IMG/VR virus record: IMGVR_UViG_3300020172_006270
Coordinates: 62,001 to 126,000 of that record
Length of the DNA: 64,000 bases
Reading direction: 5' to 3' (one strand)
From: a virus
In this document: positions 872 to 32,052 of the stretch, one piece after another
Layout of the letters: every line of letters starts with the position of its first letter
How positions within the stretch are numbered: the stretch's first letter is position 1
The notes under the pieces: generated by a model
What the model saw: the letters and a program-made list of their open reading frames with translations, nothing else
Told to the model about the DNA's origin: nothing
Databases searched by the model: none
Position numbers and translations under genes: made by a program

Positions 872-2095
872 TTACTCGTTTGTCATCATGCCCATCTTGG
901 GGAGGAATACTTCCAAAGGCAAGGTTTCCTGATCGCCCGAAGTTGATCTCATTTGCTTGAGAGTCACAGTCCTTGCGGTCTTTTCTTTTTCTCCCAAGAT
1001 GACCATATACGGTACTTTTTTCTCATACCCGATGGCAATCTTTTGTTGTAGCGTCCGATTCGAGTGATCGCATTCACACCGAATCCCTTGAGCGAGCAAG
1101 GCTTCTTTGACTTCGTTGGCGTAATCAGCAACCTTGTCGCTGATTGGTGCAATAGTAACACCGACCGGAGCCAACCACATTGGTAAATTCCCATCAGTGT
1201 GTTCTAACAGCACACCGATGAAACGCTCGAAGCTGCCATATATCGCTCGGTGAATAACAATCGGAGTTTGTTCTTTGTCTTCCTTGTCGGTGTAAGTGCA
1301 ACCGAATCGCTGCGGCAATTGGAAGTCTAACTGGATAGTAGCAGTTTGCCATTCACGACCCAGGGAGTCAGTTACAATGAAGTCGATTTTCGGTCCATAA
1401 AAAGCACCGTCTTTATGAGCCACGTCAAACTTCAAATTATTTTCACACAAGGCGTCTTCAAGGCTTGCTTCAGCATTATCCCAAGTCAATATATCGCCCA
1501 TGAAGTTATCGGGACGAGTGCTGAGTACGGATCGGAACTTCATTCCGAACCAGCCGTATACTCTGCCGATCATAATGAGAATTCGCTTGATCTCGCTTTG
1601 CAGGTTGTCCGGCGAAACGAAAATATGGGCATCATCTTGGCAGAACGCACGACAACGAGTAAGTCCACCCAAGGCACCGGAAACCTCGTTTCGATGCAAT
1701 GGGCCATACTCGGCGAACCGCACGGGCAAATCTCGATAGCTCCACTGCTTTGAGCGGAATATCTCCATATGCCCAGGGCAGTTCATTGGCTTCAAACAAC
1801 AATCTTCATGTTCTTCGTCTTGCTTCTCGCCAGTTGGCTTATCGCTGACGAAGAACATATTTTTCGCATAGTGGTCCAGATGCCCGCTGGTTGCATAAAG
1901 TTCGGACTTCCAGACGAGTGGGGTCCGAACTTCTTGGCAACCATTGGCTTCATTGAGTTGGCGAATGCGATTCAGCAATGATTGATAAAGGACAACTCCC
2001 TTCGGAAGCCAAATCGGACAGCCCGGAGATAGAGGGCTGAACATGAAGAGGTCTAGTTTCTGGCCGATTGCTCGGTGGTCCCGGTTGTTGTCCAT
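872..2095 (-). CDS. thrS: Threonyl-tRNA synthetase lacking TGS and editing domains
   Basis: Charges tRNA-Thr with threonine using ATP (class II synthetase). The 407-residue protein begins at MDNNRDHRAIGQKLDLF, matching the start of the catalytic core of bacterial ThrRS (about residue 240 of the 642-residue E. coli enzyme). The zinc ligands are present: Cys106 (MNCPGH), His157 (QDDAHIF) and His282 (IHRAIYGSFERF). Motif 2 (HRNE, Arg135) and the C-terminal anticodon-binding domain (from about residue 308) are intact. The N-terminal TGS and alanyl-type editing domains are absent, so misformed Ser-tRNA-Thr could not be cleared in cis. A GAGGG ribosome site lies inside the 3' end of the upstream gene, which overlaps it by 146 bases. 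No tRNA-Thr is seen in the window. Confidence 0.95.
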   Translation of the reverse strand: MDNNRDHRAIGQKLDLFMFSPLSPGCPIWLPKGVVLYQSLLNRIRQLNEANGCQEVRTPLVWKSELYATSGHLDHYAKNMFFVSDKPTGEKQDEEHEDCCLKPMNCPGHMEIFRSKQWSYRDLPVRFAEYGPLHRNEVSGALGGLTRCRAFCQDDAHIFVSPDNLQSEIKRILIMIGRVYGWFGMKFRSVLSTRPDNFMGDILTWDNAEASLEDALCENNLKFDVAHKDGAFYGPKIDFIVTDSLGREWQTATIQLDFQLPQRFGCTYTDKEDKEQTPIVIHRAIYGSFERFIGVLLEHTDGNLPMWLAPVGVTIAPISDKVADYANEVKEALLAQGIRCECDHSNRTLQQKIAIGYEKKVPYMVILGEKEKTARTVTLKQMRSTSGDQETLPLEVFLPKMGMMTNE

Positions 2096-2771
2096 TTATT
2101 CCCTCGATTAAGCCACGCAGTTCTTTGTTTTCGGAGCGTAACTCTTTCAGTTCTCTAAGAATTTGCAGAAGCAGAGAACCGTAGTCGATATACCCTTCTT
2201 CTGATTTCTTTTTCTTTTGATATTCTTCATTCTGGCGATCTCGTTCTTCAACATATCGAGGTTTATTCTCGGTCAGTCGAGCTTCAATTTCGCCCCAAAT
2301 CTTCAGTAGCTCTTTGCGACTCGAAGATTTCTTTTGGGTTGTCGCTAGTTCACGTTCGAGTCGTCGCTTTTCGTCCGTGAGCCATTGCCGTTCTTCAACG
2401 AAAGTGTCGAAGCTGGGGATGTCAATTTCCATCTTTTGAGCTTCCGCATATTTTTGTCTCTTTCGAGGGTTGTTTGTTGTCTTGGGTGGTCGGGCGAGTC
2501 CCCGATATGTTGGTTCGTCAGCAATTACTGTGACGAGCCGATATTCATCAATTGTTACTGATTCGAGAATGAACAACACTCCGGCGTTGAAGCTGTAAAC
2601 CGATCCATCTAAACGAGGGAGCGGATAGGGCAAAGGTTCGTTTTTCTTGATGACCCTGGACGCTTTTACGGCTTGAACGATCTCCTGTACGTTGACTTCT
2701 CCTGTTTTTGACGCACGTTCTTTCCATCGCAGTAAAGCGTGGTCCGTGACGTGGACGGTTTCGGCACGCAT
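1950..2771 (-). CDS. Hypothetical protein with coiled coil, overlaps thrS
   Basis: 273 residues. The first 90 form a compact domain (VTDHALLRWKERA..., then a beta-rich stretch ending LVTVIA) reminiscent of small toxin-like or DUF4258-like folds, but I cannot assign a family. Residues about 125-225 are strongly charged and predicted coiled coil, followed by a Pro-rich tail. The last 48 codons are read in another frame of thrS, an overlap of 146 bases, far more than elsewhere in the window. The start at 2771 follows a good AAGGGAG site. The C-terminal tail may have little function and simply tolerate the overlap. Confidence 0.7.
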   Translation of the reverse strand: MRAETVHVTDHALLRWKERASKTGEVNVQEIVQAVKASRVIKKNEPLPYPLPRLDGSVYSFNAGVLFILESVTIDEYRLVTVIADEPTYRGLARPPKTTNNPRKRQKYAEAQKMEIDIPSFDTFVEERQWLTDEKRRLERELATTQKKSSSRKELLKIWGEIEARLTENKPRYVEERDRQNEEYQKKKKSEEGYIDYGSLLLQILRELKELRSENKELRGLIEGINGQQPGPPSNRPETRPLHVQPSISGLSDLASEGSCPLSIIAESHSPTQ

Positions 2772-2796: not shown

Positions 2797-3063
2797 GGAG
2801 ATGCAACCGTCCGTAGCCTGGATTTTGTTCTATGTCGTCATTTATCTCGGAGTTACCTCCGGTCCTTGTGGACTGCACCGACCCGACCGTACAAACGCCC
2901 TGCTCACCGGCTCCGGTCTGTATGGCTTGCACCCTCGGTAGTTCAGACGCTAATCGCCCTTGCGGGTTTTCGCTCCTACCTTAAAAGCAGTGGTGTCCAG
3001 AACTTCCTCTATGATCTCCCCTTGCGAGGAATCACAGCGACGACTCGACCTTGTTGCATCCCC
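2797..3063 (-). ncRNA. rnpB: RNase P RNA (M1 RNA), compact form
   Basis: Catalytic RNA that removes 5' leaders from tRNA precursors. On the minus strand the termini pair as an 11-bp P1 helix (3063-3053 GGGGATGCAAC with 2807-2797 GTTGCATCTCC, one G-U), followed by T5. The conserved 5' box GAGGAAGTTCTGGACACC and the 3' box AGATAAATGAC...AGAACAAAATCCAGGCTA are both present. The universal P4 helix forms between AGTTCTGGA (3004-2996) and TCCAGGCT (2822-2815), with the expected single bulged U; relative to the bacterial consensus the changes in both strands keep pairing. At 267 bases it is shorter than typical type A RNAs (350-400). Two sigma70-type promoters lie directly upstream. No RNase P protein gene is seen, so it would have to use host RnpA. 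Confidence 0.93.
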
Positions 3064-13073: not shown

Positions 13074-13075
13074 AG

Positions 13076-13159
13076 TGACCTCGGTGGGACTTGAACCCAC
13101 ACGTCCTTTCGGACACAAGTTCCTAAGACTTGAGCGTATGCCAATTTCGCCACGAGGCC
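13076..13159 (-). tRNA. tRNA-Leu(UAG), class II
   Basis: Cloverleaf with acceptor GGCCTCG/CGAGGTC, anticodon loop CTTAGGA (UAG), long variable arm TGTCCGAAAGGACG, T loop TTCAAGT, discriminator A. No encoded CCA. Confidence 0.95.
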
Positions 13160-13203
13160 GTTATTTTGCGCATGAGTTCGCCAAATTTTCGTGTTCGCCA
13201 TAC

Positions 13204-13232
13204 ATTTTACCACGTTTTCGGCATCTTGTAAA
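13204..13232 (-). promoter_or_regulatory. Sigma70-type promoter upstream of tRNA-Leu(UAG)
   Basis: TTTACA (13232-13227), 17-base spacer, TGG-TAAAAT (13209-13204), lying between the two tRNA-Leu genes. Confidence 0.6.
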
Positions 13233-13235
13233 ACG

Positions 13236-13317
13236 TAGCCCTGGCGGGACTCGAACCCGCAATCCTTTCGGCGACAGATTTTAAGTCTGTTGTGTATACC
13301 AATTCCACCACAGGGCC
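13236..13317 (-). tRNA. tRNA-Leu(UAA), class II
   Basis: Acceptor GGCCCTG/CAGGGCT (G1-U72), D arm GGTGGAATTGGTATACAC, loop CTTAAAA (UAA), variable arm CGCCGAAAGGATTG, T loop TTCGAGT, discriminator A. No encoded CCA. Confidence 0.93.
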
Positions 13318-13319
13318 GC

Positions 13320-13508
13320 TCATTCGTCTTTATCGTCTTTGTGACAGTCGCAATGACAACCTTTGTGTTTGTTCTTGTATTCTATGTACTTCCTGTATCT
13401 GATTTTATTGTACCAGTTGGTGCCGGTCATTGTTCCTAAAATGGCAAGGATTGCTGTCACCAGGATATAACCAATTTCTAAAAAGCCACCACAAATACAA
13501 GCAATCAT
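13320..13508 (-). CDS. Small membrane protein with C-terminal Cys/His cluster
   Basis: 62 residues from MIACICGGF: one membrane helix (GYILVTAILAILGTM), a basic stretch, and a terminal HKGCHCDCHKDDKDE that could bind metal. An in-frame ATG at 13547 would give a longer form but lies inside the terminator hairpin of the RNA upstream, so the shorter start is preferred. Ends three bases before tRNA-Leu(UAA). Confidence 0.5.
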   Translation of the reverse strand: MIACICGGFLEIGYILVTAILAILGTMTGTNWYNKIRYRKYIEYKNKHKGCHCDCHKDDKDE

Positions 13509-13532
13509 TTCACTGTTCTTTCCTCGGAGTAT

Positions 13533-13577
13533 CAAAAAAATGAGCATATCACCTAAGCCTTCTTCGGTGATATGCTC
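13533..13577 (-). terminator. Intrinsic terminator of the 23S-like RNA
   Basis: Perfect 12-bp stem GAGCATATCACC / GGTGATATGCTC with a 12-base loop, followed on the minus strand by A-T7. Confidence 0.85.
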
Positions 13578-13838
13578 CCAGGCACCAGCAATGCAATGCC
13601 GGTGTCGAGTGTCAGGTTGGCTCGGCCAGTGTGCTATTACGCCAAAAGGGATCGCAAACAAGGAAGGCCCAAGTTTTCTCCCTACTCTTTGAATGGACCG
13701 GATTGCTCCGGCGCTGTGGCTGCTTCTAAGCCAACATCCTGGCTGTCTTTGTTTCCCCGAAAGGCAGGTCGTACCTTACCTCTAAATCACTCGATCTACC
13801 GTAGTCATTGTATTCACAATGCTTCCTACAGCGGTTTG
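13542..13838 (-). ncRNA. Free-standing RNA carrying the 23S rRNA GTPase-associated centre (H42-H44 mimic)
   Basis: On the minus strand 13747-13717 reads as 31 bases that match, as I recall it, E. coli 23S rRNA around 1048-1078 (starts GACAGCCAGGATGTTGGC, ends AGAAGCAGCCA). 13642-13621 (GCGTAATAGCACACTGGC then CGAG) matches the partner strand around 1092-1113 with two changes. Both L11/thiostrepton loops (around A1067 and A1095) are intact and GCCAG/CTGGC closes helix 42. In place of the short natural link there are two extra hairpins, one a CCGGA-GCAA-TCCGG stem with a GNRA loop. An outer 7-bp helix (13794-13788 with 13611-13605), a 5' hairpin (CATTGT-GAAT-ACAATG) and a 3' hairpin (CACCGGCA/TGCTGGTG) frame it. 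A terminator follows, so it is not a piece of a full rRNA gene. The 5' end is not fixed; I see no strong promoter of its own, so it may be cotranscribed with 13841-14275. Confidence 0.9.
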
Positions 13839-13840
13839 GC

Positions 13841-14275
13841 TCACTTATCCAACTTGGCAGGCACAGTGCCTTCCTTATTGGACTTGTCGGCAGCGATCTT
13901 TGGCTCAGGAACGAGCCATCGGGTCATTGCCGTAGTCTTAGTATAGCCAAATTGCTGAATGGCAGCGTGATACCCGTCTGCATAATTGTTTTCAGCACCG
14001 CAGAGCTTCAGTGCGTCATCCCAGCCGTCTTGATACGCACCGGGGGTTTGTGGGCCACCGATGCGAATCAGGGCGGCTTTATATCCCTGATCGTAGGTGG
14101 GCTTGCCAGCAAGCTCGGAGATTTCATCCTTGAGAATACGATGCTCGGCATCGTAGATGGAGTTCACCAGCGAGAGTCGCTGATTCTCCTTCTGAATATT
14201 CCAGGTGTGCCACGTCATTGCGCCAATGCACAATGCAGAAATCCCGGCAATGGTCCATCCAGTTTTCGTACTCAT
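13841..14275 (-). CDS. Membrane-anchored hypothetical protein (144 aa)
   Basis: Start at MSTKTGWTIAGIS (14275), preceded by GGAAGA. One N-terminal membrane helix (about 6-24), then a coiled-coil-like segment and a soluble region with two similar stretches, YDQGYKAALI.. and YADGYHAAIQ... The gene ends just upstream of the 23S-like RNA and may share its transcript. Function unknown. Confidence 0.65.
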   Translation of the reverse strand: MSTKTGWTIAGISALCIGAMTWHTWNIQKENQRLSLVNSIYDAEHRILKDEISELAGKPTYDQGYKAALIRIGGPQTPGAYQDGWDDALKLCGAENNYADGYHAAIQQFGYTKTTAMTRWLVPEPKIAADKSNKEGTVPAKLDK

Positions 14276-14356
14276 TTGCAATCTTCCTTCGGGTCTTGGT
14301 TTGGAAATCAACACAAAGTCGGAGTATACAGTCATGGAAGATAAAATCAAGCCGAG

Positions 14357-14773
14357 TTAGCTTGTCTTTTTGTCGCCATCACCACGTTGACGGGCGGCGA
14401 CGTAGAAGACGTAAGAAGTCTTGCTCTGACCCATAGCCATCTTGCTGGGAGATTCGGTTTGTCGGTAGGTAACTGCAAGTTTGGTTGTCGGAGTCTCGTA
14501 GGCCAGCAGTTCTTTCATCCTGGCTAGAATTGATGCAATAAACTGAGGACTGCCTGTGAGTCGCATTCCGTCTTCGCCATATGTGGAACCCTTGTGGGTA
14601 TAGTCAATGGCTTGCATCTGAACGGGCGTATCGGGACGTAAGTTCTTCCAGTAAGCCACAATTTCGTCTTTTGTGGCTTTCCATTTGGTCGATTGCTGAG
14701 AAGGGGCCGCTTGAGGCTGTTGTGCCTGCGGCTGCATTTCTTGCGATCCCATGAATTCCTTGAACGTCATCAT
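14357..14773 (-). CDS. Phage protein with capsid-targeting-like N-terminus (138 aa)
   Basis: Starts MMTFKEFMGSQE, resembling the T4 capsid-targeting sequence (M-K-T-[YF]-x-x-F-x-x-E), followed by a Gln/Pro-rich linker and a small globular domain. The possible cleavage site here (SQE) is weaker than in its siblings. TATATAAGG lies directly before the start, as before the next gene. Confidence 0.65.
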   Translation of the reverse strand: MMTFKEFMGSQEMQPQAQQPQAAPSQQSTKWKATKDEIVAYWKNLRPDTPVQMQAIDYTHKGSTYGEDGMRLTGSPQFIASILARMKELLAYETPTTKLAVTYRQTESPSKMAMGQSKTSYVFYVAARQRGDGDKKTS

Positions 14774-14776
14774 ACC

Positions 14777-15001
14777 TTATATACCGACTTTTGATCTGAT
14801 CTTGTCGCTGTGCTTGTGGACTTTTTTGTGATCCACGCCACCTTTGCGGTATGCCTTGTTCTTTTCTTCGGAATTCTGGTCGCTACAAGCCCCAATTACC
14901 TGATAATCACTGGTATCCGTGCAGTTTCCGATATACGGACCACTGCCCATTTCCCGGAGTTTGGCTTCTCTTGTCTGCATCCAGTCTTTGAATTTAATCA
15001 T
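14777..15001 (-). CDS. Small phage protein with capsid-targeting-like N-terminus (74 aa)
   Basis: Starts MIKFKDWMQTREAKLREM, with an L-R-E site that fits T4 prohead protease specificity. The remainder is basic and ends HKKVHKHSDKIRSKVGI, suited to binding DNA inside a head (inference). Preceded by TATATAAGG. Confidence 0.6.
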   Translation of the reverse strand: MIKFKDWMQTREAKLREMGSGPYIGNCTDTSDYQVIGACSDQNSEEKNKAYRKGGVDHKKVHKHSDKIRSKVGI

Positions 15002-15004
15002 GCC

Positions 15005-15724
15005 TTATATATCACTGGACAAATCTAATGCAATTCCCCACTCTCGGTTTTTATTGGCAACGTAATTTCTAGTAGTTTTCGCCTTATCCAATATTTCAGC
15101 GTTGATCCGCTGGGTTTCTTTGATGTTTTTGTTGCGAAAATTCCTTGCTCGTTCTTTTTCGTTGTGGTCAATTGCTCGGCAAAAACGGAGCGGCGTCTCT
15201 GCGTATTTCAATTTGTTGTGCATTGCTGCACGAAATTCAAAGTCTATATCATCCCAGCCCCAGCCTACGTTCATATCTTCGTTGTAGCCATTGACGCTAT
15301 AGAAGTGTTCTCGACGGACGGCGATTTTCCCACAACTGCCAGACATATTGAACATATCAAATACGGGAGCAGTCATGATGCGATCTTTATTCTGCATGAC
15401 TTCTTGGATCAACTGAACAAAGCCGTCGATCAAGAAATTGTCGGCGTCTAAATTGCAAAGAATATCGCCGGTCGCTTGGCGATGAGCAATGTTTTTGGCG
15501 TGAGATGCCTGAAAGTGTTCGGGAAGCTGAGTTCGATAGTATTTGACGGTTCCACGCTCGATCCAGGGCCGGATATTGTCACGGACCCATTCGTGCATTC
15601 CGTCTTTGCTGCCATAATTAAGCAGCACAAACTCGCAATCTGGTGCGACATGAAGGTTTATGGGCAGGGTTCTCATTAGATGATGAACCCTGCCCATGCA
15701 AGTTGTGCAAAATGATATTTTCAA
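15005..15724 (-). CDS. Family 2-type glycosyltransferase
   Basis: 239 residues, GT-A fold. KISFCTTCMGRVH at the N-terminus is the nucleotide-binding strand, NYGSKDGM and NLDADNFL (the DxD metal site) follow, and GWGWDDIDFEFRA is the typical acceptor-side motif. It would move a sugar from a nucleotide donor, perhaps to phage or host surface glycans. Cotranscribed with two methyltransferase-like genes upstream. Confidence 0.85.
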   Translation of the reverse strand: MKISFCTTCMGRVHHLMRTLPINLHVAPDCEFVLLNYGSKDGMHEWVRDNIRPWIERGTVKYYRTQLPEHFQASHAKNIAHRQATGDILCNLDADNFLIDGFVQLIQEVMQNKDRIMTAPVFDMFNMSGSCGKIAVRREHFYSVNGYNEDMNVGWGWDDIDFEFRAAMHNKLKYAETPLRFCRAIDHNEKERARNFRNKNIKETQRINAEILDKAKTTRNYVANKNREWGIALDLSSDI

Positions 15725-15725
15725 A

Positions 15726-16376
15726 TTAGCCCTTCAAGAACAAGGCCATGAATCCTCTTGATAGTGGCGAATCATAATATCCAGTACACCGAGGATGTTT
15801 GGCCAAAGCGAAAATCTTTTCTCTATATTCGCTTTGAGTTTGTGGGCTTGTCCAATCAGGAGCGGAGTCAGACCGATATGGCGAAGTATCGTGAAATACT
15901 GCAAGTTTACGCAGCGTTCCTTTGTTGAGCATAATCTCGCATTCGAGGGGTCTGATCTCAGTCAGACTATCGAAGAATCCAATATCGAATACCATATTGG
16001 ATTGTTGTAAGAATTCAAGAGAATCAACGCAATGTACTTCAGCCCATTTAAGCAAGTGTTCTTCTTCAAGAACGGTTTGCAATCGAACGCATTGGGGTGG
16101 CAGAACTTCGAGAGAATGAACCTTGCCGAAGCCATTGAGTTTGCACGCATGAGCCAGAGCAGTTGTACCGAAGCCTTCCCAGGCACCAGTTTCCAAAACC
16201 AAGTCGGGCTTCAATACTCGAATGGTTGAGTGCAGCCAATTGAGGACTTCATATTCTGTTGAGCCGCCATCGGCTACTTCAAATAAGTCTGCACGTTCCG
16301 CTGCGATGTGTGGGTGAACATCGCATTCTCTAAGAATGGGACTCCAAGCTGGTTTCCAAGTATAATCTCGTTCCAC
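15726..16376 (-). CDS. SAM-dependent methyltransferase-like protein, copy 2
   Basis: 216 residues with a Rossmann-type pattern: LVLETGAWEGFGTTALAHA (SAM-binding loop), KVHSLEVLPPQC, and VFDIGFFDSLTEIRPLECEIM...AVFHDTSPYR. This matches the Methyltransf_24-type small O-methyltransferases often linked with glycan clusters. Paralogue of the next gene upstream. Confidence 0.75.
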   Translation of the reverse strand: MERDYTWKPAWSPILRECDVHPHIAAERADLFEVADGGSTEYEVLNWLHSTIRVLKPDLVLETGAWEGFGTTALAHACKLNGFGKVHSLEVLPPQCVRLQTVLEEEHLLKWAEVHCVDSLEFLQQSNMVFDIGFFDSLTEIRPLECEIMLNKGTLRKLAVFHDTSPYRSDSAPDWTSPQTQSEYREKIFALAKHPRCTGYYDSPLSRGFMALFLKG

Positions 16377-16377
16377 T

Positions 16378-17019
16378 TCAACCCCTTAAAAACAAAGCAA
16401 TAAATCCTCTGGATAAAGTCCACTCAAAGTAGCCAGTGCAAAGAGGATTTTTTGCCATGTCGAATATTTTGTTTCTGAATGTGTCTTGTTCTTCTTTGGT
16501 AGTATACACTGTGGTTCGAGTTGCGGCTGTGTCGTGAAACACTGCTATTTTTTTGATTATTCCACGACGCATACAAATCATGCCTTCGTCGGCTTTGATT
16601 TCAATCAAAGTATCGAAGAACCCAATATCAAATATTAGATCGGTTTCTTCTAAAAACTTCATTGAATCGCATTCGTGAACCTCAGCCCATTCACTTAACC
16701 CCTCGTCAGCAAGTCGTTGTCGAACTTGTGCGCAAGTCTCCGGGTTATGTTCAAGAGAGTGAACTTTGCCAAATCCATTTAGCTTGCAGGCGTGAGCCAA
16801 AGCAATTGTCCCCATGCCCTCCCAGGCACCAGTTTCCAAAACCACTTCAGGTTTCATGACCCTAACGGTTGCATGGAGCCAATTCAGAACTTCAAATTCG
16901 GTAGAGCTAGGATCAGCAACATCGAACAAATGTGCTTTTTCACAGGCATCATGCAGATGAATATCAGCTTCGATTTGCAATGGAGTCCATGCAGGCTTCC
17001 AAGTGTAGTCTTTTTCCAT
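16378..17019 (-). CDS. SAM-dependent methyltransferase-like protein, copy 1
   Basis: 213 residues, clearly a tandem duplicate of the neighbouring gene (shared YTWKPAWxP start, LETGAWEG, GKVHSLE, DIGFFD, AVFHDT and the end SRGF.ALFL.G). The copies differ throughout, so the duplication is old and both may have distinct acceptors. Confidence 0.75.
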   Translation of the reverse strand: MEKDYTWKPAWTPLQIEADIHLHDACEKAHLFDVADPSSTEFEVLNWLHATVRVMKPEVVLETGAWEGMGTIALAHACKLNGFGKVHSLEHNPETCAQVRQRLADEGLSEWAEVHECDSMKFLEETDLIFDIGFFDTLIEIKADEGMICMRRGIIKKIAVFHDTAATRTTVYTTKEEQDTFRNKIFDMAKNPLCTGYFEWTLSRGFIALFLRG

Positions 17020-17298
17020 TTAACCGCCTAAAGATATTACCGATGCTGTGACTTCTTCGCCCGCTTCTTTTTGCTTTTGGCATTCTTTGAAAACACAAAT
17101 CATGCACAAAGCCGGGACGTGAGGGTTATTGACTTTCATTGTGGTTTGGCGAGGTCCAATCCAACATCCAACTCCACAATTCTCACAGGGAATCCTACCT
17201 GAACCTGCATGTGGAACATATGGCACATCTTCCATTCCAAGTCGATCTTTGGCTTCGATTGGAATAAGTGCCAATACATTCATTCTTTGCTCGTCCAC
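17020..17298 (-). CDS. Small zinc-binding protein (92 aa)
   Basis: Carries IPCENCGVGCWIG and LCMICVFKEC, enough cysteines for one or two zinc sites. Ends one base before the methyltransferase gene. MNVLALIP (17283) is an alternative start. Function unknown. Confidence 0.6.
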   Translation of the reverse strand: MDEQRMNVLALIPIEAKDRLGMEDVPYVPHAGSGRIPCENCGVGCWIGPRQTTMKVNNPHVPALCMICVFKECQKQKEAGEEVTASVISLGG

Positions 17299-17316
17299 GA
17301 TTATTTCCTTCTTGGA

Positions 17317-17550
17317 TTATATATCGCCCCGGCGAATGATCCCGGATTTCATCAGCGATGGAACGTCATTGGGATTAAGACCATGTAATTCTTTGTAGTG
17401 CCTTTGCACCAAGTATCTTTCAACACCAATGCTGAAAGGCATCCATTCACCAAGTTCAGCGGACAGTTTGGTGATTTCCGCTTCTTTGTTTTTGTCCCGA
17501 TAGTGCAGGGGAAGGCCACAAGCACAGCGTTTGACTTGATTTCTACTCAT
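17317..17550 (-). CDS. Hypothetical protein (77 aa)
   Basis: Start placed at MSRNQVKRCACGLPLHY (17550), overlapping the end of the upstream gene by eight bases. CACGLPLHY could be half of a zinc site. No family recognised. Confidence 0.55.
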   Translation of the reverse strand: MSRNQVKRCACGLPLHYRDKNKEAEITKLSAELGEWMPFSIGVERYLVQRHYKELHGLNPNDVPSLMKSGIIRRGDI

Positions 17551-17914
17551 CGAACTGCCCTTTTGGAATTGGTCCATATTGTCTTGCCATGCACGCTCTG
17601 AGGTATCGTCTTGTAAGACGTTCAAGGCTTGGCAAATACATGGTGATGAAAGCCTGTCGCAGTTCGCTGATTTCTTTTTTGCCGGGGTTGAAGCCTTTGG
17701 GTCGAAGGTATCCTGATATGCTCACGCCTGTTGGCCGGTGTATCAGAAATACCGCTCGCAACTTTTTGTGTTTTTCGTTTTTGTCTGACCGGACGCAGAC
17801 TTCTCCTGGTCGTATTTTGAATTTTCCAAAAGAATAATCCGACACGCATCTTTGAAGCACGCTGTTGTCAATGTGCATTGATTCTCGAACTTGCGTGGCG
17901 TTAGGTTTTCGCAT
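17543..17914 (-). CDS. Hypothetical protein (123 aa)
   Basis: Basic protein with IRPGEVCVRSDKNEKHKKLRAVFLIHRPTGVSI, a compact beta-rich region. Start assumed at MRKPNATQVRES, overlapping the upstream stop by 14 bases; MDCLPF (17962) is possible. Unknown function. Confidence 0.55.
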   Translation of the reverse strand: MRKPNATQVRESMHIDNSVLQRCVSDYSFGKFKIRPGEVCVRSDKNEKHKKLRAVFLIHRPTGVSISGYLRPKGFNPGKKEISELRQAFITMYLPSLERLTRRYLRACMARQYGPIPKGQFDE

Positions 17915-18086
17915 TGGCTTTTTGTTTCCAACAGACTGCGTGGTAAATGGCAGGCAATCCATCTATCGCTATGATTTCTGGATCGAGGACATATTTGCGG
18001 TTGATCTTGAGTGCATGGCCGCACTTACGACATTGCCGATTCTTATGCTTGCAATTTTTCGTGACTTTGTATTCGGGTCGCATCAT
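17901..18086 (-). CDS. Small zinc-ribbon-like protein (61 aa)
   Basis: Start MMRPEYKVTK overlaps the TGA of the previous gene. KNCKHKNRQCRKCGHALK with a later HAVCWK gives four or more metal ligands. Basic, possibly nucleic-acid binding. Confidence 0.6.
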   Translation of the reverse strand: MMRPEYKVTKNCKHKNRQCRKCGHALKINRKYVLDPEIIAIDGLPAIYHAVCWKQKANAKT

Positions 18087-18361
18087 CGTTCCTCGATGTC
18101 GGTTCCCCAAAAACCAAATCGGAACCAGAAGGTCTTGCCGTCTTCGACTTGGACTTTATAGATGCGACAATTTTTGCTATGCCAGAACGGTCCAATATCG
18201 AAATGGTGTCGATCTATGCTGGAAACAACATGCTTGTTCGTCGCAGCCCAGGTATTTATTTCCTTTCGGTCGCTGGATTCCTGCGCAGGCAGAATTATGA
18301 GTGCCAATAGCAAAAACACAACAACGACGACAGCCAAAATCTTCTTTTCCATGATCTCCAT
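18083..18361 (-). CDS. Small secreted or membrane-anchored protein (92 aa)
   Basis: One strong N-terminal hydrophobic helix (ILAVVVVVFLLLALIILP) then a soluble domain with DIGPFWHSKNCRIYKVQVEDG. GGAG precedes the ATG, and a promoter with perfect TGG-TATAAT lies 24 bases upstream inside the tuf terminator region. Confidence 0.65.
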   Translation of the reverse strand: MEIMEKKILAVVVVVFLLLALIILPAQESSDRKEINTWAATNKHVVSSIDRHHFDIGPFWHSKNCRIYKVQVEDGKTFWFRFGFWGTDIEER

Positions 18362-18372
18362 CCATAAACGAC

Positions 18373-18400
18373 AAAAGCGTGGTGATTATACCACGCTTTT
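18373..18400 (-). terminator. Hairpin after tuf, likely terminator
   Basis: 11-bp stem AAAAGCGTGGT / ACCACGCTTTT with a six-base loop directly after the tuf stop codon. The T stretch is short, so termination may be partial; the loop also contains the -10 box of the next gene. Confidence 0.55.
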
Positions 18401-18413
18401 GCGTTTCTTTACA
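18385..18413 (-). promoter_or_regulatory. Promoter of 18083-18361
   Basis: Perfect extended -10 TGG-TATAAT (18390-18385) with TGTAAA 17 bases upstream, overlapping the tuf stop codon and the tuf hairpin. Confidence 0.55.
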
Positions 18414-19581
18414 GCAGTTCCGTCACGACGCCTGAGCCAATCGTCATACCGCCCTCTCGGATAGCGAAATGACTGCCTTTTTCAATGGCAATCGGCTTAT
18501 CCAGGGTGATAAACAGGCAAGTGTTCTCGCCCGGCATAACCAATTCGATTCCTTCCGGCATTTCAACAAGGCCGGTGACGTTAGTGGTTCGGAAGAAGAA
18601 CTGCGGCTTATAACCGTTGAAGATCGGGGTGTGACGCCCGCCCTCATCCTTGCCCAAGACGTAAATTTCACTCTTGAACTTGGTGTGAGGTTTGATACTT
18701 CGTGGTTGTGCCACAACCTGTCCACGCTCCACCTGATCGGCTTTGATGCCTCTCAGCAGCAACCCGACGTTCTGACCAGCTTCGCCAAATTCCAATTGCT
18801 TGTTGAAGGCTTCGACGCTGGTGACAACCGATTCCAGAATGTCTCCCAGGCCCAAGATTTCAACTTTGGTTCCGACCGTGACGGTTCCTTGCTCGATCTT
18901 GCCCGTGACTACACAGCCACGACCTTCGATGTTGTGAACGCCCTCGATAGGCATCAAGAAAGGACGGTCAATAGAACGGCTGGGGTCAGGGATATAAGAA
19001 TCCAGAGCCGCCATCAGTTCTACGATGCACTTGCTTGCTGCGGGATCGGCAGGGTTATCCAGAGCGGGCTTTGCGGCCCCACGGATAAAGGGAGTCTTCT
19101 CACCATCGAAGCCATACTTCGTCAGCAAGTCTCTCGTTTCCATCTCGACCAGTTCGAGCAATTCCTTATCCTGAACCAGATCACACTTATTGAGGAACAC
19201 GACAATATCCGGCACGCCCACCTGACGAGCGAGCAGAATATGCTCTTTCGTCTGAGGCATAGGACCGTCTGCTGCATTGACGAGCAATACAGCGCCGTCC
19301 ATTTGAGCGGCCCCGGTAATCATGTTCTTCACATAGTCGGCGTGACCAGGGCAGTCGATGTGAGCATAGTGACGGGTATCCGTCTCATACTCAACGTGCG
19401 ACGTGGTGATCGTTACCGTTTTGGTAACGTCACGAACGGTGCCGCCCTTGGCGATGTCGCCGTATGCTTTCTTTTTTGCGAAACCCTTTTCGGCCTGAAC
19501 AGCGAGAATAGCTGCGGTCAGGGTCGTCTTCCCGTGGTCAATGTGACCAATCGTTCCGACATTGATGTGGACTTTCTTCAC
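18409..19581 (-). CDS. tuf: Elongation factor Tu with altered switch I
   Basis: GTPase that carries aminoacyl-tRNA to the ribosome. The 390-residue protein keeps all three domains: G1 GHIDHGKT (12-19), DCPGH (76-80, with catalytic His80), NKCD (131-134), and domains 2 and 3 through FAIREGG near the C-terminus. It lacks the short N-terminal tail of E. coli EF-Tu. The odd part is switch I: the usual A-P-E-E-K-A-R-G-I-T-I is replaced by [13 protein letters not shown], keeping only the magnesium-binding Thr57. The rest is very close to bacterial EF-Tu, so this is a local change. A tRNA-Leu gene lies just upstream, like bacterial tRNA-tufB operons. A 7-bp hairpin sits before the AGGAG site. Confidence 0.96.
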
Positions 19582-19594
19582 TTTACTTTCTCCT

Positions 19595-19615
19595 GTGATC
19601 TTTACGATAGATCAC
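19595..19615 (-). promoter_or_regulatory. 5' UTR hairpin of tuf
   Basis: GTGATCT-ATCGTAA-AGATCAC, directly 5' of the AGGAG ribosome site. It could be a translational control hairpin or simply an mRNA end left after tRNA processing. Confidence 0.45.
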
Positions 19616-19705
19616 TGTTGGAGGTTTTGATCTCTATATCCCCACTACAGAATAGTGTTTCTACTCACAACGAGTAAGAGCCAAGGCATCCAGAAATCGA
19701 AACAG

Positions 19706-19789
19706 TGCCGCTCCCCGGACTTGAACCGGGACGCCGGTAAAGGCATCAGATTTTGAGTCTGACGTGTCTGCCAATTCCACCAGAGCGGC
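19706..19789 (-). tRNA. tRNA-Leu(CAA), class II
   Basis: Acceptor GCCGCTC/GAGCGGC, D arm with GGCAGACAC, loop CTCAAAA (CAA), variable arm TGCCTTTACCGGCG, discriminator A. No encoded CCA. Lies 124 bases upstream of tuf. Confidence 0.95.
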
Positions 19790-19802
19790 ATAAACAAAAC
19801 AG

Positions 19803-19877
19803 TGACGGGTGTGGGACTCGAACCCACAAAACCATGATTTTAAGTCACGGATGTCTGCCTAGTTGCATCAACCCGCC
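19803..19877 (-). tRNA. Leu-like tRNA(UAA) with short variable loop
   Basis: Acceptor GGCGGGT/ACCCGTC, anticodon stem CGTGA/TCATG with loop CTTAAAA (UAA), variable loop of only five bases (GTTTT), T arm GTGGG-TTCGAGT-CCCAC, discriminator A. The D arm (GATGCAACTAGGCAGACATC) has the GGCAGACA of tRNA-Leu, but the long arm of leucine tRNAs is missing. Confidence 0.85.
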
Positions 19878-19883
19878 ATACAG

Positions 19884-19960
19884 TGCCAGCGGTGGGACTC
19901 GAACCCACAAAACCCCGGCTCTCGACCGGAGATGTCTACCATAGGTTGCATCACGCTGGC
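19884..19960 (-). tRNA. Leu-like tRNA(GAG) with short variable loop
   Basis: Acceptor GCCAGCG/CGCTGGC, anticodon stem TCCGG/CCGGG with loop TCGAGAG (GAG), unusual C at position 33, variable loop GTTTT, discriminator A. D arm GATGCAACCTATGGTAGA then CATC is leucine-like. Confidence 0.8.
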
Positions 19961-19964
19961 ATAT

Positions 19965-19986
19965 AGTGCCGGATCGCTCCAGCACT
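19965..19986 (-). other. Hairpin upstream of short-arm tRNA pair
   Basis: AGTGCTGGA-GCGA-TCCGGCACT, a 9-bp stem with a GNRA-type loop, four bases upstream of the Leu-like tRNA(GAG). No T run follows, so it is more likely a processing or leader structure than a terminator. Confidence 0.45.
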
Positions 19987-19992
19987 AATCTC

Positions 19993-20295
19993 TTAATCCT
20001 CACCACGCAACTCTTTGAGTTGTTCGTTGTAGTCCACGTCAGACTTCAATTCGTGATTGTGCTTTGACCGCTTTGGATACTTGTCGCTATGACAGATGCC
20101 GCACTGCGGATTGCCACAATCGAAAGCGTCTTTCTTACGGAATCGACCCTTCTGTTCATCACATTCACAGTCAACAACATATGCGCTGACGCCAATGCGA
20201 TTTCTTGTCCAGGTTTTGTTGCTCTCAACGTGAGAGCGCCGGTGTTTCTTCCACTCACGCAGAGTGATCTTGTAATCCTCGTGCCACCGCTTCAT
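19993..20295 (-). CDS. Small zinc-binding phage protein (100 aa)
   Basis: Start at MKRWHEDYKITLREWKKH, preceded by GGAGG. Basic, with VDCECDEQKGRFRKKDAFDCG then NPQCGICHSDKYPKR, a four-plus cysteine metal site of a type common in unannotated phage proteins. Function unknown. Confidence 0.7.
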   Translation of the reverse strand: MKRWHEDYKITLREWKKHRRSHVESNKTWTRNRIGVSAYVVDCECDEQKGRFRKKDAFDCGNPQCGICHSDKYPKRSKHNHELKSDVDYNEQLKELRGED

Positions 20296-20365
20296 CGTTC
20301 CCTCCATAATGGGTTTGGGTAATAGGCTCGATGAAGCCGATGATTTGCGTGTGGTGAGTGTTCAT
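20255..20365 (-). CDS. Possible 36-aa small protein
   Basis: ATG at 20365 follows AGAGAG and reads MNTHHTQIIGFIEPITQTHY... to a stop at 20255, overlapping the next gene by 41 bases. It fills the only gap in this stretch. Supported only by ribosome site and context. Confidence 0.35.
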   Translation of the reverse strand: MNTHHTQIIGFIEPITQTHYGGNDEAVARGLQDHSA

Positions 20366-20376
20366 GTTTATTCTCT

Positions 20377-20829
20377 CTAGTTAAGGAAGCAACAGTCCGG
20401 GTTGGGACACCAATCTCCGAACTCTTCGGATTGGGTGTCAGAAATCAATCGTGTGTAACAGCAACGGCAATGTCCTTTGACCCACCATGCTGGGCCGAAC
20501 CATCGAAAGCCGCCACGAGTTGTTTCGTAGTAGCATCCAATTCGTTCTAGCCAATCCATAATAGTGTGGGCGATCATTCGCCGTTCAGCATCACGCCATG
20601 AGTAAGGAAATTCATGCCACTCATAGCCATGACCACTTTCTCGGTATTGATGATCTCGACCGAGATACTTCCATGATTTTTGCTTGCGAACAAACTGATC
20701 GTCCCATGCCGTGGGAAGGTTTCGTCTCTTCCCACGGACATAGGGATCATTGCGGTCTTGGTTCGCTCTTATTTCTTGTGTTGTTCTCGGATACCGAAGG
20801 CACGTCGAGAACCATCTTTTCTTTGCCAT
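20377..20829 (-). CDS. Hypothetical protein with C-terminal zinc ribbon (150 aa)
   Basis: Basic N-terminal half, then a segment RDAERRMIAHTIMDWLERIGCYYETTRGG and a terminal GHCRCCYTR...DWCPNPDCC zinc-ribbon pattern. AGGAGA precedes the ATG, with a small hairpin (AAGTGC-ATTCC-GCACTT) partly covering it. Unknown function. Confidence 0.65.
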   Translation of the reverse strand: MAKKRWFSTCLRYPRTTQEIRANQDRNDPYVRGKRRNLPTAWDDQFVRKQKSWKYLGRDHQYRESGHGYEWHEFPYSWRDAERRMIAHTIMDWLERIGCYYETTRGGFRWFGPAWWVKGHCRCCYTRLISDTQSEEFGDWCPNPDCCFLN

Positions 20830-20954
20830 GTAGCGTTTCTCCTAAGTGCGGAATGCACTTAAAAGACGCTACCCAGCCTTTCGTGAATTTTCATACGAGT
20901 CCTTTTACTTTGTTCTTTCAAATATGTGGACTGTCGAATCCTTGACAGTTTTAC

Positions 20955-21029
20955 TTACCGATCATAGGCGATCCTATCGCTACCGGGGTCAGCCTCATGT
21001 TCATCCTGAACATCAGCGTCCACTTCCAT
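20955..21029 (-). CDS. Possible 24-aa acidic peptide
   Basis: ATG overlaps the TGA of the upstream gene (TGATG) and reads MEVDADVQDEHEADPGSDR... to a stop at 20955. The other bases of the 20830-21028 gap hold only the leader of the next gene. Low support. Confidence 0.3.
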   Translation of the reverse strand: MEVDADVQDEHEADPGSDRIAYDR

Positions 21030-21541
21030 CAACCCGTCCAAATTTCTTCTTTTCCAGTCGGCGGGTCATTCAATCTCTTCAAAAATTTACCTGTATATTT
21101 ATGGTCTTCGGGGTTCAAACCCTTCCGCAAATACCGCACATCTGGTGTTACTTCTCGTTCCGAATACTGATATTCAATGCCCAGCCGAGTGTGTTTGATG
21201 ATTTTCTTTTCTTTATCCACCCATTCGTATTCACGAGCCTGATCGACAACTACAGTGCCTTTCATGCCTTCGATGTCGATGTCATATTCGTGCATGTTCT
21301 GGATTTCAATTTCGTCTTCTTCAACCAACGCCCAACAAGGATAGCTGTACCGTTTAGGCGGTGGGTTTTCATGGATCGGTCCACCCATCAACATTCGTCG
21401 CAAGAGAGCCGAGTGGCCAACATCAGCCGAACTTGAACCTCGTTTATTGTCTTCGCAGATATTCATCCACTGGCAAACCATCTTGCAAGCGAACTCACAC
21501 TGCTCACGAGTCAACGATGTAACTTTTTCTTCGTCCATCAT
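21029..21541 (-). CDS. Hypothetical protein (170 aa)
   Basis: Start at MMDEEKVTSLTRE (21541), with GGAG six bases upstream and the tRNA 3' end close by. Acidic, with a beta-rich middle (YPCWALVEEDEIEIQNMHEYDIDIEG). No family recognised. Confidence 0.65.
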   Translation of the reverse strand: MMDEEKVTSLTREQCEFACKMVCQWMNICEDNKRGSSSADVGHSALLRRMLMGGPIHENPPPKRYSYPCWALVEEDEIEIQNMHEYDIDIEGMKGTVVVDQAREYEWVDKEKKIIKHTRLGIEYQYSEREVTPDVRYLRKGLNPEDHKYTGKFLKRLNDPPTGKEEIWTG

Positions 21542-21555
21542 ATTCTCCAACAAAG

Positions 21556-21632
21556 TACCCAGGACGGGACTCGAACCCGTAAAACCGATATTTTGAGTAT
21601 CGGATGTCTACCGAAGGTTGCATCACCTGGGC
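21556..21632 (-). tRNA. Leu-like tRNA(CAA) with short variable loop
   Basis: Acceptor GCCCAGG/CCTGGGT, D arm GATGCAACCTTCGGTAGA then CATC, anticodon stem CGATA/TATCG with loop CTCAAAA (CAA), variable loop GTTTT, T arm ACGGG/CCCGT, discriminator A. A TGTACA-17-TGG-TAGAAT promoter-like site (21663-21635) abuts the 5' end, closer than a normal start site would allow. Confidence 0.85.
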
Positions 21633-21669
21633 ATATTCTACCAAATCTCGTCTTGGCTGTACAGCCAAG

Positions 21670-21757
21670 TGGACAGCGACGGAATCGAACCGCTCCGGCA
21701 CCCACCCTACTTTTTTAATGCCAACGGATTTACAGTCCGCCGTAAGGAACGCTATCC
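21670..21757 (-). tRNA. tRNA-Tyr(GUA) with nearly absent D arm
   Basis: Acceptor GGATAGC/GCTGTCC, anticodon stem GCGGA/TCCGT with loop CTGTAAA (GUA), a large variable arm closed by GGCA/TGCC, T loop TTCGATT, discriminator A. Only about ten bases (GTTCCTTACG) lie between acceptor and anticodon stem, compared with about 19-25 in normal tRNA-Tyr, so the D arm is reduced to at most a 2-bp stem. Confidence 0.75.
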
Positions 21758-21813
21758 ATGTTTTCCTAAAAACAGGTGTTTTCCCACATAGGAAAACATG
21801 CGTTTTTAGGAAA
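21757..21813. repeat. Overlapping palindromes beside tRNA-Tyr
   Basis: Two perfect inverted repeats share one arm: CATGTTTTCCT (21757-21767) with 21790-21800, and TTTCCTAAAAAC (21762-21773) with 21802-21813. They cannot form at once, so the leader of tRNA-Tyr could switch between two hairpins. Confidence 0.7.
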
Positions 21814-21814
21814 G

Positions 21815-21888
21815 TCGCTCCGGTGGGACTCGAACCCACAGCATCCCTGGTTCTAAGCCAAGGTGGTCTGCCAATTGCCTACAGAGCG
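21815..21888 (-). tRNA. Leu-like tRNA(UAG) with short variable loop
   Basis: Acceptor CGCTCTG/CGGAGCG, anticodon stem CTTGG/CCAGG with loop CTTAGAA (UAG), short variable loop, T arm GTGGG-TTCGAGT-CCCAC, discriminator A. D loop carries GGCAGACC. Confidence 0.8.
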
Positions 21889-21894
21889 TTCAAG

Positions 21895-21966
21895 TGGACT
21901 GTGAGGCGCTCGAATCCTCGTCTCAGCGTTTTCAGCGCTGCGCTACACCATCTCAGCTAACAGTCC
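21895..21966 (-). tRNA. tRNA-Phe(GAA), copy 1
   Basis: Acceptor GGACTGT/ACAGTCC, anticodon stem CAGCG/CGCTG with loop CTGAAAA (GAA), discriminator A. The T arm (GAGGA-TTCGAGC-GCCTC) has one mismatch. Confidence 0.88.
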
Positions 21967-21974
21967 ATATACAG

Positions 21975-22058
21975 TGTCCGAGGGGAGAGTCGAACTCCCA
22001 CGCCTTTTACGGCACAAGGCCCTCAACCTTGCGTGTCTACCAATTTCACCACTCGGAC
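21975..22058 (-). tRNA. tRNA-Leu(GAG), class II
   Basis: Acceptor GTCCGAG/CTCGGAC, D arm GGTGAAATTGGTAGACAC, loop TTGAGGG (GAG), variable arm TGCCGTAAAAGGCG, discriminator A. Confidence 0.95.
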
Positions 22059-22070
22059 AAAACAAATCAG

Positions 22071-22145
22071 TGGGCTGTCTCAGAGTCGAACTGAGTTCTC
22101 ATGTTCTTCAGACATGCGCTGAATGACCGCACTAGCTCACAGCCC
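22071..22145 (-). tRNA. tRNA-Phe(GAA), copy 2
   Basis: Acceptor GGGCTGT/ACAGCCC, anticodon stem CATGT/ACATG with loop CTGAAGA (GAA), T arm CTCAG-TTCGACT-CTGAG, discriminator A. Sequence differs strongly from copy 1, so it is not a recent duplicate. Confidence 0.88.
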
Positions 22146-22154
22146 AATATTCAA

Positions 22155-22334
22155 TTATTCTTTTGTTGCTTCTTCAAGTTCCCTGATGCAATCTCGCAAT
22201 GATATTGTTCGTCCATGCTGGACGCCCATTGCAGTCAATGGGTTCATATCTTTTGCGACATTAGGATTCTCTTGAAATCGCTTCAATCGTTCTTTCCATT
22301 TTTGAATCAATTCTTGTATATTTGTTTCTTGCAT
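22155..22334 (-). CDS. Small helical protein (59 aa)
   Basis: Start MQETNIQELIQKWKERLK, with AAGGA upstream. Likely two amphipathic helices with the segment NPLTAMGVQHGRTISLRDCIRELEE. Sits inside the tRNA array. Unknown function. Confidence 0.6.
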   Translation of the reverse strand: MQETNIQELIQKWKERLKRFQENPNVAKDMNPLTAMGVQHGRTISLRDCIRELEEATKE

Positions 22335-22350
22335 ATTTAATCCTTCCAAG

Positions 22351-22434
22351 TCTCCGGGGGGAGAGTCGAACTCCCACGCCTTTTACGGCACAAGATTCTG
22401 AGTCTTGCGTGTCTACCAATTCCACCACCCGGAG
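22351..22434 (-). tRNA. tRNA-Leu(CAG), class II
   Basis: Acceptor CTCCGGG/CCCGGAG, loop CTCAGAA (CAG), variable arm TGCCGTAAAAGGCG nearly identical to tRNA-Leu(GAG), discriminator A. It completes the set of five leucine anticodons. Confidence 0.95.
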
Positions 22435-22441
22435 ATAAAAG

Positions 22442-22530
22442 CGGAAGTCAAGGGAATTGAACCCTTACCGGATATTTCACCGGGCCTGTTTTCAAGACAG
22501 GTGCAACAAACCAATATTTGCCTAACTTCC
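22442..22530 (-). tRNA. tRNA-Ser(UGA)
   Basis: Acceptor GGAAGTT/GACTTCC, loop CTTGAAA (UGA), long variable arm CCCGGTGAAATATCCGGT, discriminator G. Confidence 0.94.
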
Positions 22531-22548
22531 ATATTGTGTCAACAACTT

Positions 22549-22632
22549 TGACATAGAGGATACACCGGCTTCGACACCGGATATGTCCCGTTTCTAGCAG
22601 GATGAGTTACATTTCTCCATGTACTCCATATC
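22549..22632 (-). ncRNA. Degenerate tRNA-like element
   Basis: Lies between two tRNA-Ser genes. Ends can pair (GATATGGAG with CTCTATGTC), TACAT/ATGTA could be a D stem, TCCTG-CTAGAAA-CGGGA looks like an anticodon stem-loop (AGA), and CCGG-TGTCGAAG-CCGG resembles a T arm. The T arm does not abut the acceptor, so it is either a decayed tRNA or a tRNA-shaped RNA. Confidence 0.35.
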
Positions 22633-22646
22633 GCATTTGACACAAG

Positions 22647-22733
22647 CGGAAGCCAAGGGAATTGAACCCTCACCGGGATTAACCGGGCCTGTTTTCGAGA
22701 CAGGTGCAACAAACCAGTATTTGCCTAGCTTCC
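22647..22733 (-). tRNA. tRNA-Ser(CGA)
   Basis: Acceptor GGAAGCT/GGCTTCC, loop CTCGAAA (CGA), variable arm CCCGGTTAATCCCGGT, discriminator G. Confidence 0.94.
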
Positions 22734-22746
22734 ATAAAACAACAAG

Positions 22747-22836
22747 CGGAGGACAAGGGAATCGAACCCTCACCGGGTATTTCACCGGATCGGTTTAGCA
22801 AACCGACGTAGCAACACCACCATCTACCTATCCTCC
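22747..22836 (-). tRNA. tRNA-Ser(GCU)
   Basis: Acceptor GGAGGAT/GTCCTCC, loop TTGCTAA (GCU), long variable arm closed by CCGG, discriminator G. Confidence 0.94.
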
Positions 22837-22842
22837 ATTCAG

Positions 22843-22931
22843 CGGAAGCCAAGGGAATTGAACCCTCACCGGATATTTCACCGGACCCGCTTTCCAGGCG
22901 AGCGCAACAAACCAGTATTTGCCTAGCTTCC
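22843..22931 (-). tRNA. tRNA-Ser(GGA)
   Basis: Acceptor GGAAGCT/GGCTTCC, loop CTGGAAA (GGA), long variable arm, discriminator G. D and acceptor arms are nearly identical to tRNA-Ser(CGA). Confidence 0.94.
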
Positions 22932-22987
22932 GTGTAATGCACTATACTTTGAACATTAACCAGGGCTAATGTTCATTCTATCGTACA

Positions 22988-23287
22988 TTATGCTTCAACC
23001 TTCACCAACTTGCCAAAGATACAGTTCCGGCCAACCCAGCCATTGATATGGCCTTTGTTGTTGCCGATCTGGAATCGGTCGCCTTGTATTGCTTTGATTA
23101 AGTGCAGGTATTGTTTGCCTGCAACTTTGCACAATACAATGTCGCCCGTATCCAAAACGCCAGTCACCGGCTCGACAGTGCATAACTGTCCTGATTCGAT
23201 CTTCCCGACCATTGAGTTGCCTCGTGGTCGAAACGAAACCGTCTCACCTGTTTGGAGTTTCGCTATGTAACCAGTCGCCCATCCCAT
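22988..23287 (-). CDS. S24/S26-type peptidase-like protein
   Basis: 99 residues forming just a LexA/signal-peptidase catalytic fold: FRPRGNSMVGKIESGQ holds the likely nucleophile Ser in G-N-S-M, VLDTGDIVLCKV the second strand, and YLHLIKAIQGDRFQIGNN the region with the general-base Lys. There is no DNA-binding domain and no membrane anchor. It could be a self-standing protease domain or an inactive relative. It sits inside the tRNA array. Confidence 0.75.
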   Translation of the reverse strand: MGWATGYIAKLQTGETVSFRPRGNSMVGKIESGQLCTVEPVTGVLDTGDIVLCKVAGKQYLHLIKAIQGDRFQIGNNKGHINGWVGRNCIFGKLVKVEA

Positions 23288-23302
23288 AGTAATTCTCCAA
23301 GT

Positions 23303-23386
23303 GCATCCGGCAGGAATCGAACCTGCATGTCCCGAAGGAGGCTGGGTTACAGCCAGCTAGACCCACCACACTGTCTAACGGATGCG
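23303..23386 (-). tRNA. tRNA-Tyr(GUA), class II
   Basis: Acceptor GCATCCG/CGGATGC, anticodon stem GCTGG/CCAGC with loop CTGTAAC (GUA), variable arm with CTCCTTCGGGACAT, T loop TTCGATT, discriminator A. A normal D arm is present, unlike the other tRNA-Tyr. Confidence 0.93.
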
Positions 23387-31926: not shown

Positions 31927-32052
31927 TTTGTTGCCGCATGGTTGTATAGTCCATGCGGCGTAGAGATCGCTTGCTTATTTTCTCGGATTGCATTATGCTT
32001 TACTCCCATATGTAAGCAACTGGAAAAAGGCCAACTATATGTGGGAGCGAGC

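Follow-up and report, generated by a model that had tools for sequence, protein, structure and literature searches.

The window, as we call the whole stretch of 64,000 nucleotides under study, comprises bases 62,001-126,000 of a 223,268-base viral record. This record is that of a myophage, judged by the presence of tail sheath, tail tube and baseplate proteins; it also encodes a ribonucleotide-reductase-like protein and a recombination-type protein. RNase P belongs to the small set of near-universal ribozymes, and its gene is regarded as cellular. Covariance searches place a homologue of its RNA at 3063→2797 on the minus strand of the window, and homology, together with a conserved and covarying structure, identifies this element as a reduced RNase P RNA gene of a phage. 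The RNA and its neighborhood consist of the following features:

872..2095, minus strand: class II aminoacyl-tRNA synthetase, with domain matches to the catalytic core and the HGTP anticodon-binding domain
1950..2771, minus strand: open reading frame with no function assigned, downstream of the RNA and adjoining it also in L003-L005
2797..3063, minus strand: reduced, class-A-like RNase P RNA, 267 nt from P1 to P1, matched by RF00010 and by the viral covariance model R1
3073-3068, minus strand: second -10-like box, TATGAT, immediately before P1
3128-3100, minus strand: sigma-70-like putative promoter, TTTACA-17-TATGAT, with an extended -10 TG (TATCAT in L003)
13075..23385, minus strand: 14 tRNA genes (7 Leu, 4 Ser, 2 Phe, 1 Tyr), putative substrates
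18409..19581, minus strand: phage EF-Tu inside the tRNA block, complete, 390 amino acids, three domains

We take the synthetase to be threonyl-like. The open reading frame next to the RNA was considered as a possible new protein partner; its sole match is weak and leads to a family without known function, and this neighborhood is kept only in close relatives. EF-Tu proteins with 74% identity to that of the window are encoded in viral records 436 and 533 kb long. The window further encodes a glutathionylspermidine synthase-like ATP-grasp protein (8445-9590, minus strand; PF03738, E 5e-146) and a large open reading frame (31942-33702, plus strand) that strongly matches a phage family without known function and that we presume to encode a CTP synthase.

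An earlier reading of this DNA, made from its letters alone, had credited the RNA with promoters of its own. This claim stands in part: both promoter-like sites are largely conserved in two related phages, L003 and L005, but the promoter scan by itself is not above chance (4 sites found vs 2.7 expected). An intrinsic terminator was sought after the RNA and not found.

Identification and architecture of the RNA

At the curated Rfam thresholds, only tRNAs are reported in the window and no RNase P RNA. When the threshold of cmscan was relaxed, the model of bacterial class A RNase P RNA (RF00010) matched over its full length (1-367) at 3058-2798 on the minus strand with 47.4 bits (E 1.6e-13). This score does not reach the gathering score of 100 bits, and routine annotation therefore misses the RNA. 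A second covariance model, R1, was built from an alignment of 19 short viral RNAs from which the window and its close relatives were left out; it matches at 3045-2814 (minus strand) with 81.9 bits (E 3.2e-18). The runner-up elsewhere in the 223-kb record scores 14 bits (E 0.19), no other R1 match reaches E 0.1, and a further search across the whole record likewise gave this site alone. The minimum free energy of the RNA corresponds to a z-score of -3.0. The sequence-only reading had proposed an RNase P RNA at 2797-3063 and had named the Rfam bacterial models as the way to check it; by both searches the RNA is real at these coordinates, on the minus strand, even though the RF00010 match stays under the gathering score. 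Its parts, in the direction of transcription, are:

3063-3053, minus strand: P1 5' strand GGGGAUGCAAC, pairs with 2807-2797
3039..3044, minus strand: P2 5' strand GUCGUC, pairs with GACGAC at 2834-2839; P2 covaries in viral relatives
3009..3038, minus strand: P3 hairpin, with compensated changes relative to L003
2996..3009, minus strand: 5' conserved box GAGGAA and P4 5' strand with the bulged U, GAGGAAGUUCUGGA
within 2927..2995, minus strand: P5, CACC 2995-2992 / GGUG 2933-2930
2986..2990, minus strand: P6 5' strand CUGCU, forming a pseudoknot with AGCAG 2904-2900 in L17
between the P5 strands, minus strand: P7, the residual specificity arm, GGUAG 2980-2976 / CUACC 2941-2937, which replaces P8-P12
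2929-2927, minus strand: J5/15, CAA
2875..2926, minus strand: P15-P16-P17 with the GGU box CGGGU
2848..2873, minus strand: two small hairpins at the position of P18
2839..2847, minus strand: J18/2, AGAUAAAUG
2814..2828, minus strand: 3' conserved box and P4 3' strand, ACAAAAUCCAGGCUA
2807-2797, minus strand: P1 3' strand GUUGCAUCUCC, pairs with 3063-3053

P1 comprises 11 bp and closes exactly at 3063 and 2797, and all eight of the eight P4 pairs form. P1, the 5' and 3' boxes and P4 with its bulged U are all present, as had been read from the sequence, and where P4 departs from the bacterial consensus the differences are indeed compensated changes. The core made up of P1-P2-P3 and P5-P15 is found as well, with the conserved adenosines of J5/15 and J18/2. 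The GGU box of bacterial RNase P RNA binds the 3' CCA of tRNAs; in the window RNA, the GGU motif is present in L15 as CGGGU at 2885-2881. RNase P RNAs of class A are separated from those of class B by the P6 pseudoknot and P16/P17, and the window RNA carries this mark of class A: its P6 pseudoknot (CUGCU/AGCAG) accompanies P16/P17 and covaries in the relatives.

The CR-II and CR-III motifs of the bacterial specificity domain help to bind the T arm of tRNAs. In the window RNA, P8-P12 are gone along with both motifs, and about 110 positions of the Rfam model stand opposite 20 nt in the alignment. It is this loss of the specificity domain that makes the RNA compact. The RNA is thus shortened, as the sequence-only reading had it; its size is not unusual among its viral kin, for the loss of P8-P12 is typical of the viral family. 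Both motifs are absent from 83 of the 95 listed viral RNAs, that of the window included, and the usual viral arm has the form GUGGGAG-[hairpin]-CGUU...ACCAC. In a few viral RNAs (L025, L050, L061 and L117), only the P6 strand is left between the two P5 strands, so that RNAs of about 156-160 nt remain that are almost the catalytic domain alone.

Two side observations concern the residual arm. A recurrent internal-loop motif, GGGAG-[hairpin]-CGUUANNACC, is kept between very different phages (e.g., L105 and L016) and is weaker in the window (2980-2937). In another viral RNase P RNA (L126:765-977, minus strand), the arm harbors a 68-nt tRNA-like sequence with an acceptor-like closing stem and a T arm with GGUUCAAGUCC; this insert folds in a cloverleaf-like manner.

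Viral relatives and covariation

A scan of IMG/VR for the 3' box, in which sequences with a GAGGAA box upstream were kept, yielded at least 95 distinct viral RNase P RNAs, among them those of the window, its relatives and Stenotrophomonas phage DLP6. When annotated phages were searched for similarity to the window RNA, a sole match of 35 nt emerged, in DLP6; it corresponds to the 3' box of an entire RNase P RNA. R1 scores 78-79 bits in the two relatives of the window, 84 bits in DLP6, and 79.7 and 96.6 bits in the huge phages LR756508 (484 kb) and LR756511 (595 kb). Weak matches in Enterocloster, Fusobacterium, Lactobacillus 521B and Xanthomonas XaC1 phages were rejected as chance after the R1 test.

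The bulged U of P4 is invariant in all 95 listed viral RNAs, in which P4 is paired in 99.3% of cells vs 78.5% (maximum 82.2%) with permuted 3' strands; the search pattern by which the sequences were collected dictates part of the counts for P4 and the 3' box, but not the variable positions of P4. In the alignment of 19 sequences, 91.0% of cells are paired vs 67.7% after shuffling, changes on both sides occur in 33 of the 45 pairs, and the covariation score amounts to 0.580 vs 0.174 for shuffled alignments; when the partners are displaced by one to three columns, only 31-45% of cells still pair. Besides P4, the viral RNAs covary in P2, P5, P6, P7, P15 and P16. P6 played no part in the selection of sequences; its complement averages 5.4 nt vs 4.0 in mismatched combinations, and the whole helix is swapped between RNAs (e.g., CUGCU/AGCAG, GUGAGAA/UUCUCAC and GCAAGAAG/CUUCUUGC). 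The length of P1 is 11-13 bp.

Viral records that were chosen by their phage EF-Tu, and not by the RNA, carry the RNase P RNA in nine of 21 cases, including the records of 436 and 533 kb. All nine belong to the ten records with an EF-Tu of 70% identity or more; the match in one of them, G061, is weak (31 bits). A phage-type motif gave 10 matches in viral contigs vs none in 84,980 prokaryote genomes; it covers one sub-group only and therefore leaves room for such an RNA in bacteria.

Association with tRNA genes and proposed role

The 14 tRNA genes of the window form one block, and no others were found elsewhere in the record. As had been noted from the sequence, CCA is encoded in none of the 14; 13 of them end in discriminator-C-T instead, and this C could still pair with the GGU box. 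The sequence-only reading had also placed the RNA upstream of the block, and here it was mistaken: with regard to the direction of transcription, the RNA follows the tRNAs at a distance of 10-20 kb and is therefore downstream of them. In many other phages the two are closer. Among the 82 listed phage-type loci, 52 have a tRNA within 500 bp of the RNA, always on the same strand (52 of 52); as a tRNA is found at this distance or less from 40% of random positions in the same loci, the linkage exceeds the background but not by an extreme margin. A same-strand tRNA, of 14 types in all, starts 14-32 nt past the P4 3' strand, just after P1, in 34 of 94 listed loci. In DLP6, whose genome has a cluster of 30 tRNAs (PMC5349666), the RNase P RNA lies unannotated between a CDS and tRNA-Arg. 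Two viral contigs with phage RNase P RNA also carry tmRNA genes (L018:929-1353 and L101:1020-1389). The homology to RNase P RNA and the tie to phage tRNAs put forward by the sequence-only reading are thus strongly supported by the covariance models, the covariation in 95 relatives and the tRNA linkage in other phages.

Searches for RnpA (PF00825) in the 223,268-base record, which is possibly partial, and in 50 other viral records found none. The record likewise gave no match for a protein-only RNase P (PIN_5, PF08745) or for a CCA-adding enzyme (PF01743). Judged from sequence, the reduced phage RNA probably joins host RnpA to cleave the 5' leaders of phage pre-tRNAs. It would be transcribed in the infected cell and would bind the RnpA protein of the host, because the phage encodes none; given that RnpA was found in none of 51 viral records, the simplest model is a hybrid enzyme whose RNA comes from the phage and whose protein comes from the host. 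The parts retained by the RNA amount to the catalytic domain: P1-P5, P15-P17, the bulged U of P4, the P6 pseudoknot, the GGU box and the adenosines of J5/15 and J18/2. The hybrid enzyme would then cut the 5' leaders off phage pre-tRNAs. Where a tRNA directly follows the RNA, its 5' end lies just past the P1 3' strand, so that cleavage there would at the same time create the 3' end of the RNase P RNA. The absence of RnpA agrees with reliance on a protein of the host; we infer catalysis, use of the host protein, the tRNA substrates and self-maturation. Since the RNA usually resides inside the tRNA clusters of large viruses, such viruses may mature their own tRNAs.

A wider proposal is more tentative, though not far from an even chance. 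The RNAs may form a virus-specific class that has lost the specificity domain, occurs widely among tRNA-rich and huge phages and often serves as the 5' leader of a tRNA; cleavage that releases both tRNA and ribozyme would make it a natural cis-linked ribozyme-substrate unit, and the phage would be partly independent of the host in 5' maturation of tRNAs. Several points speak against the main reading, cleavage of phage pre-tRNAs. The host already possesses an RNase P, and the benefit to the phage is not obvious; CR-II and CR-III are missing and the RF00010 score is under the curated cut-off; and the window RNA is 10 kb away from the tRNAs of its own phage, whereas many relatives lie in an array.

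Of the alternatives, we consider a decoy improbable: an RNase P RNA mimic that cuts no tRNAs and titrates host RnpA, thereby lowering host tRNA processing, would agree with phages devoid of RnpA and with the missing specificity domain, but the catalytic P4, the bulged U, the GGU box and the J5/15 adenosines, which the viral RNAs have all retained under covariation, would be superfluous in a decoy, as would placement within same-strand tRNA arrays. A changed specificity, with substrates that are mainly other than tRNAs, e.g., phage mRNAs or tRNA-like structures, seems slightly less probable still. Retention of the GGU box and the position of many relatives directly before or after tRNAs argue against it, even though the domain that binds the T arm is lost and the gene is distant from the tRNAs of the phage in the window.

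That the RNA is a functionless, decaying rnpB copy acquired by the phage from a host is very improbable. Its divergence, its shortening and its score under the Rfam cut-off would fit; yet compensatory change maintains the helices across the 95 listed sequences, which strongly disfavors decay, the RNA and its promoter-like sites are kept between related phages, and the same RNA recurs in nine of the 21 records selected by EF-Tu. An assembly artefact joining a bacterial rnpB fragment to a phage contig, conceivable in a metagenomic record when full-length RNase P RNA of bacterial appearance is present in some contigs from the pattern scan, is refuted in practice by the same RNA in the isolated genome of DLP6 and by identical synteny in three contigs from other samples, and the phage-type motif, with matches in viral contigs and none in 84,980 prokaryote genomes, likewise speaks against it. 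Cleavage of phage pre-tRNAs with the aid of host RnpA is hence the reading that we prefer.

Relation to known RNase P RNAs and phage ribozymes

Huge phages encode tRNAs, tRNA synthetases, EF-Tu, tmRNA and a CCA-adding enzyme, and the main text of the paper describing them does not mention RNase P (PMC7162821). We found no prior report of a phage-encoded RNase P RNA in the openly accessible literature that the search covered. A shrunken RNase P RNA carried by viruses of many phage lineages would add 5' maturation of tRNAs to the host steps taken over by phages, and the Rfam cut-off conceals a whole class of RNA from standard phage annotation. Theta ribozymes of gut phages also adjoin phage tRNA genes, with a proposed role in tRNA maturation; they are self-cleaving and HDV-like, are proposed to act on 3' trailers, and differ from the viral RNAs in their unrelated fold and in not being a trans-acting enzyme (PMC10879173).

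With bacterial class A RNA (RF00010), the viral RNA has in common the order and identity of P1-P5 and P15-P17, the bulged U of P4, the P6 pseudoknot, J5/15 and J18/2; it differs in its score (47.4 bits, below 100) and in the short P7 arm that takes the place of P8-P12 with CR-II/CR-III. Because the specificity domain is lacking and the curated score is not attained, we place it outside Rfam class A, as a viral variant of RNase P RNA. From the bacterial RNase P holoenzyme it differs in being encoded by a phage without rnpA.

The archaeal type T RNase P RNA of Pyrobaculum has likewise kept the catalytic domain and lost the specificity domain. In this outline it resembles the viral RNAs. Type T has archaeal protein partners and an archaeal sequence, whereas the viral RNAs are read as bacterial class A by the Rfam scan, and some of them, at about 156-160 nt, are shorter than type T. 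The viral RNAs would provide biochemistry with natural minimal RNase P RNAs, and they would show how far the loss of the specificity domain can go with a protein partner of the bacterial type.
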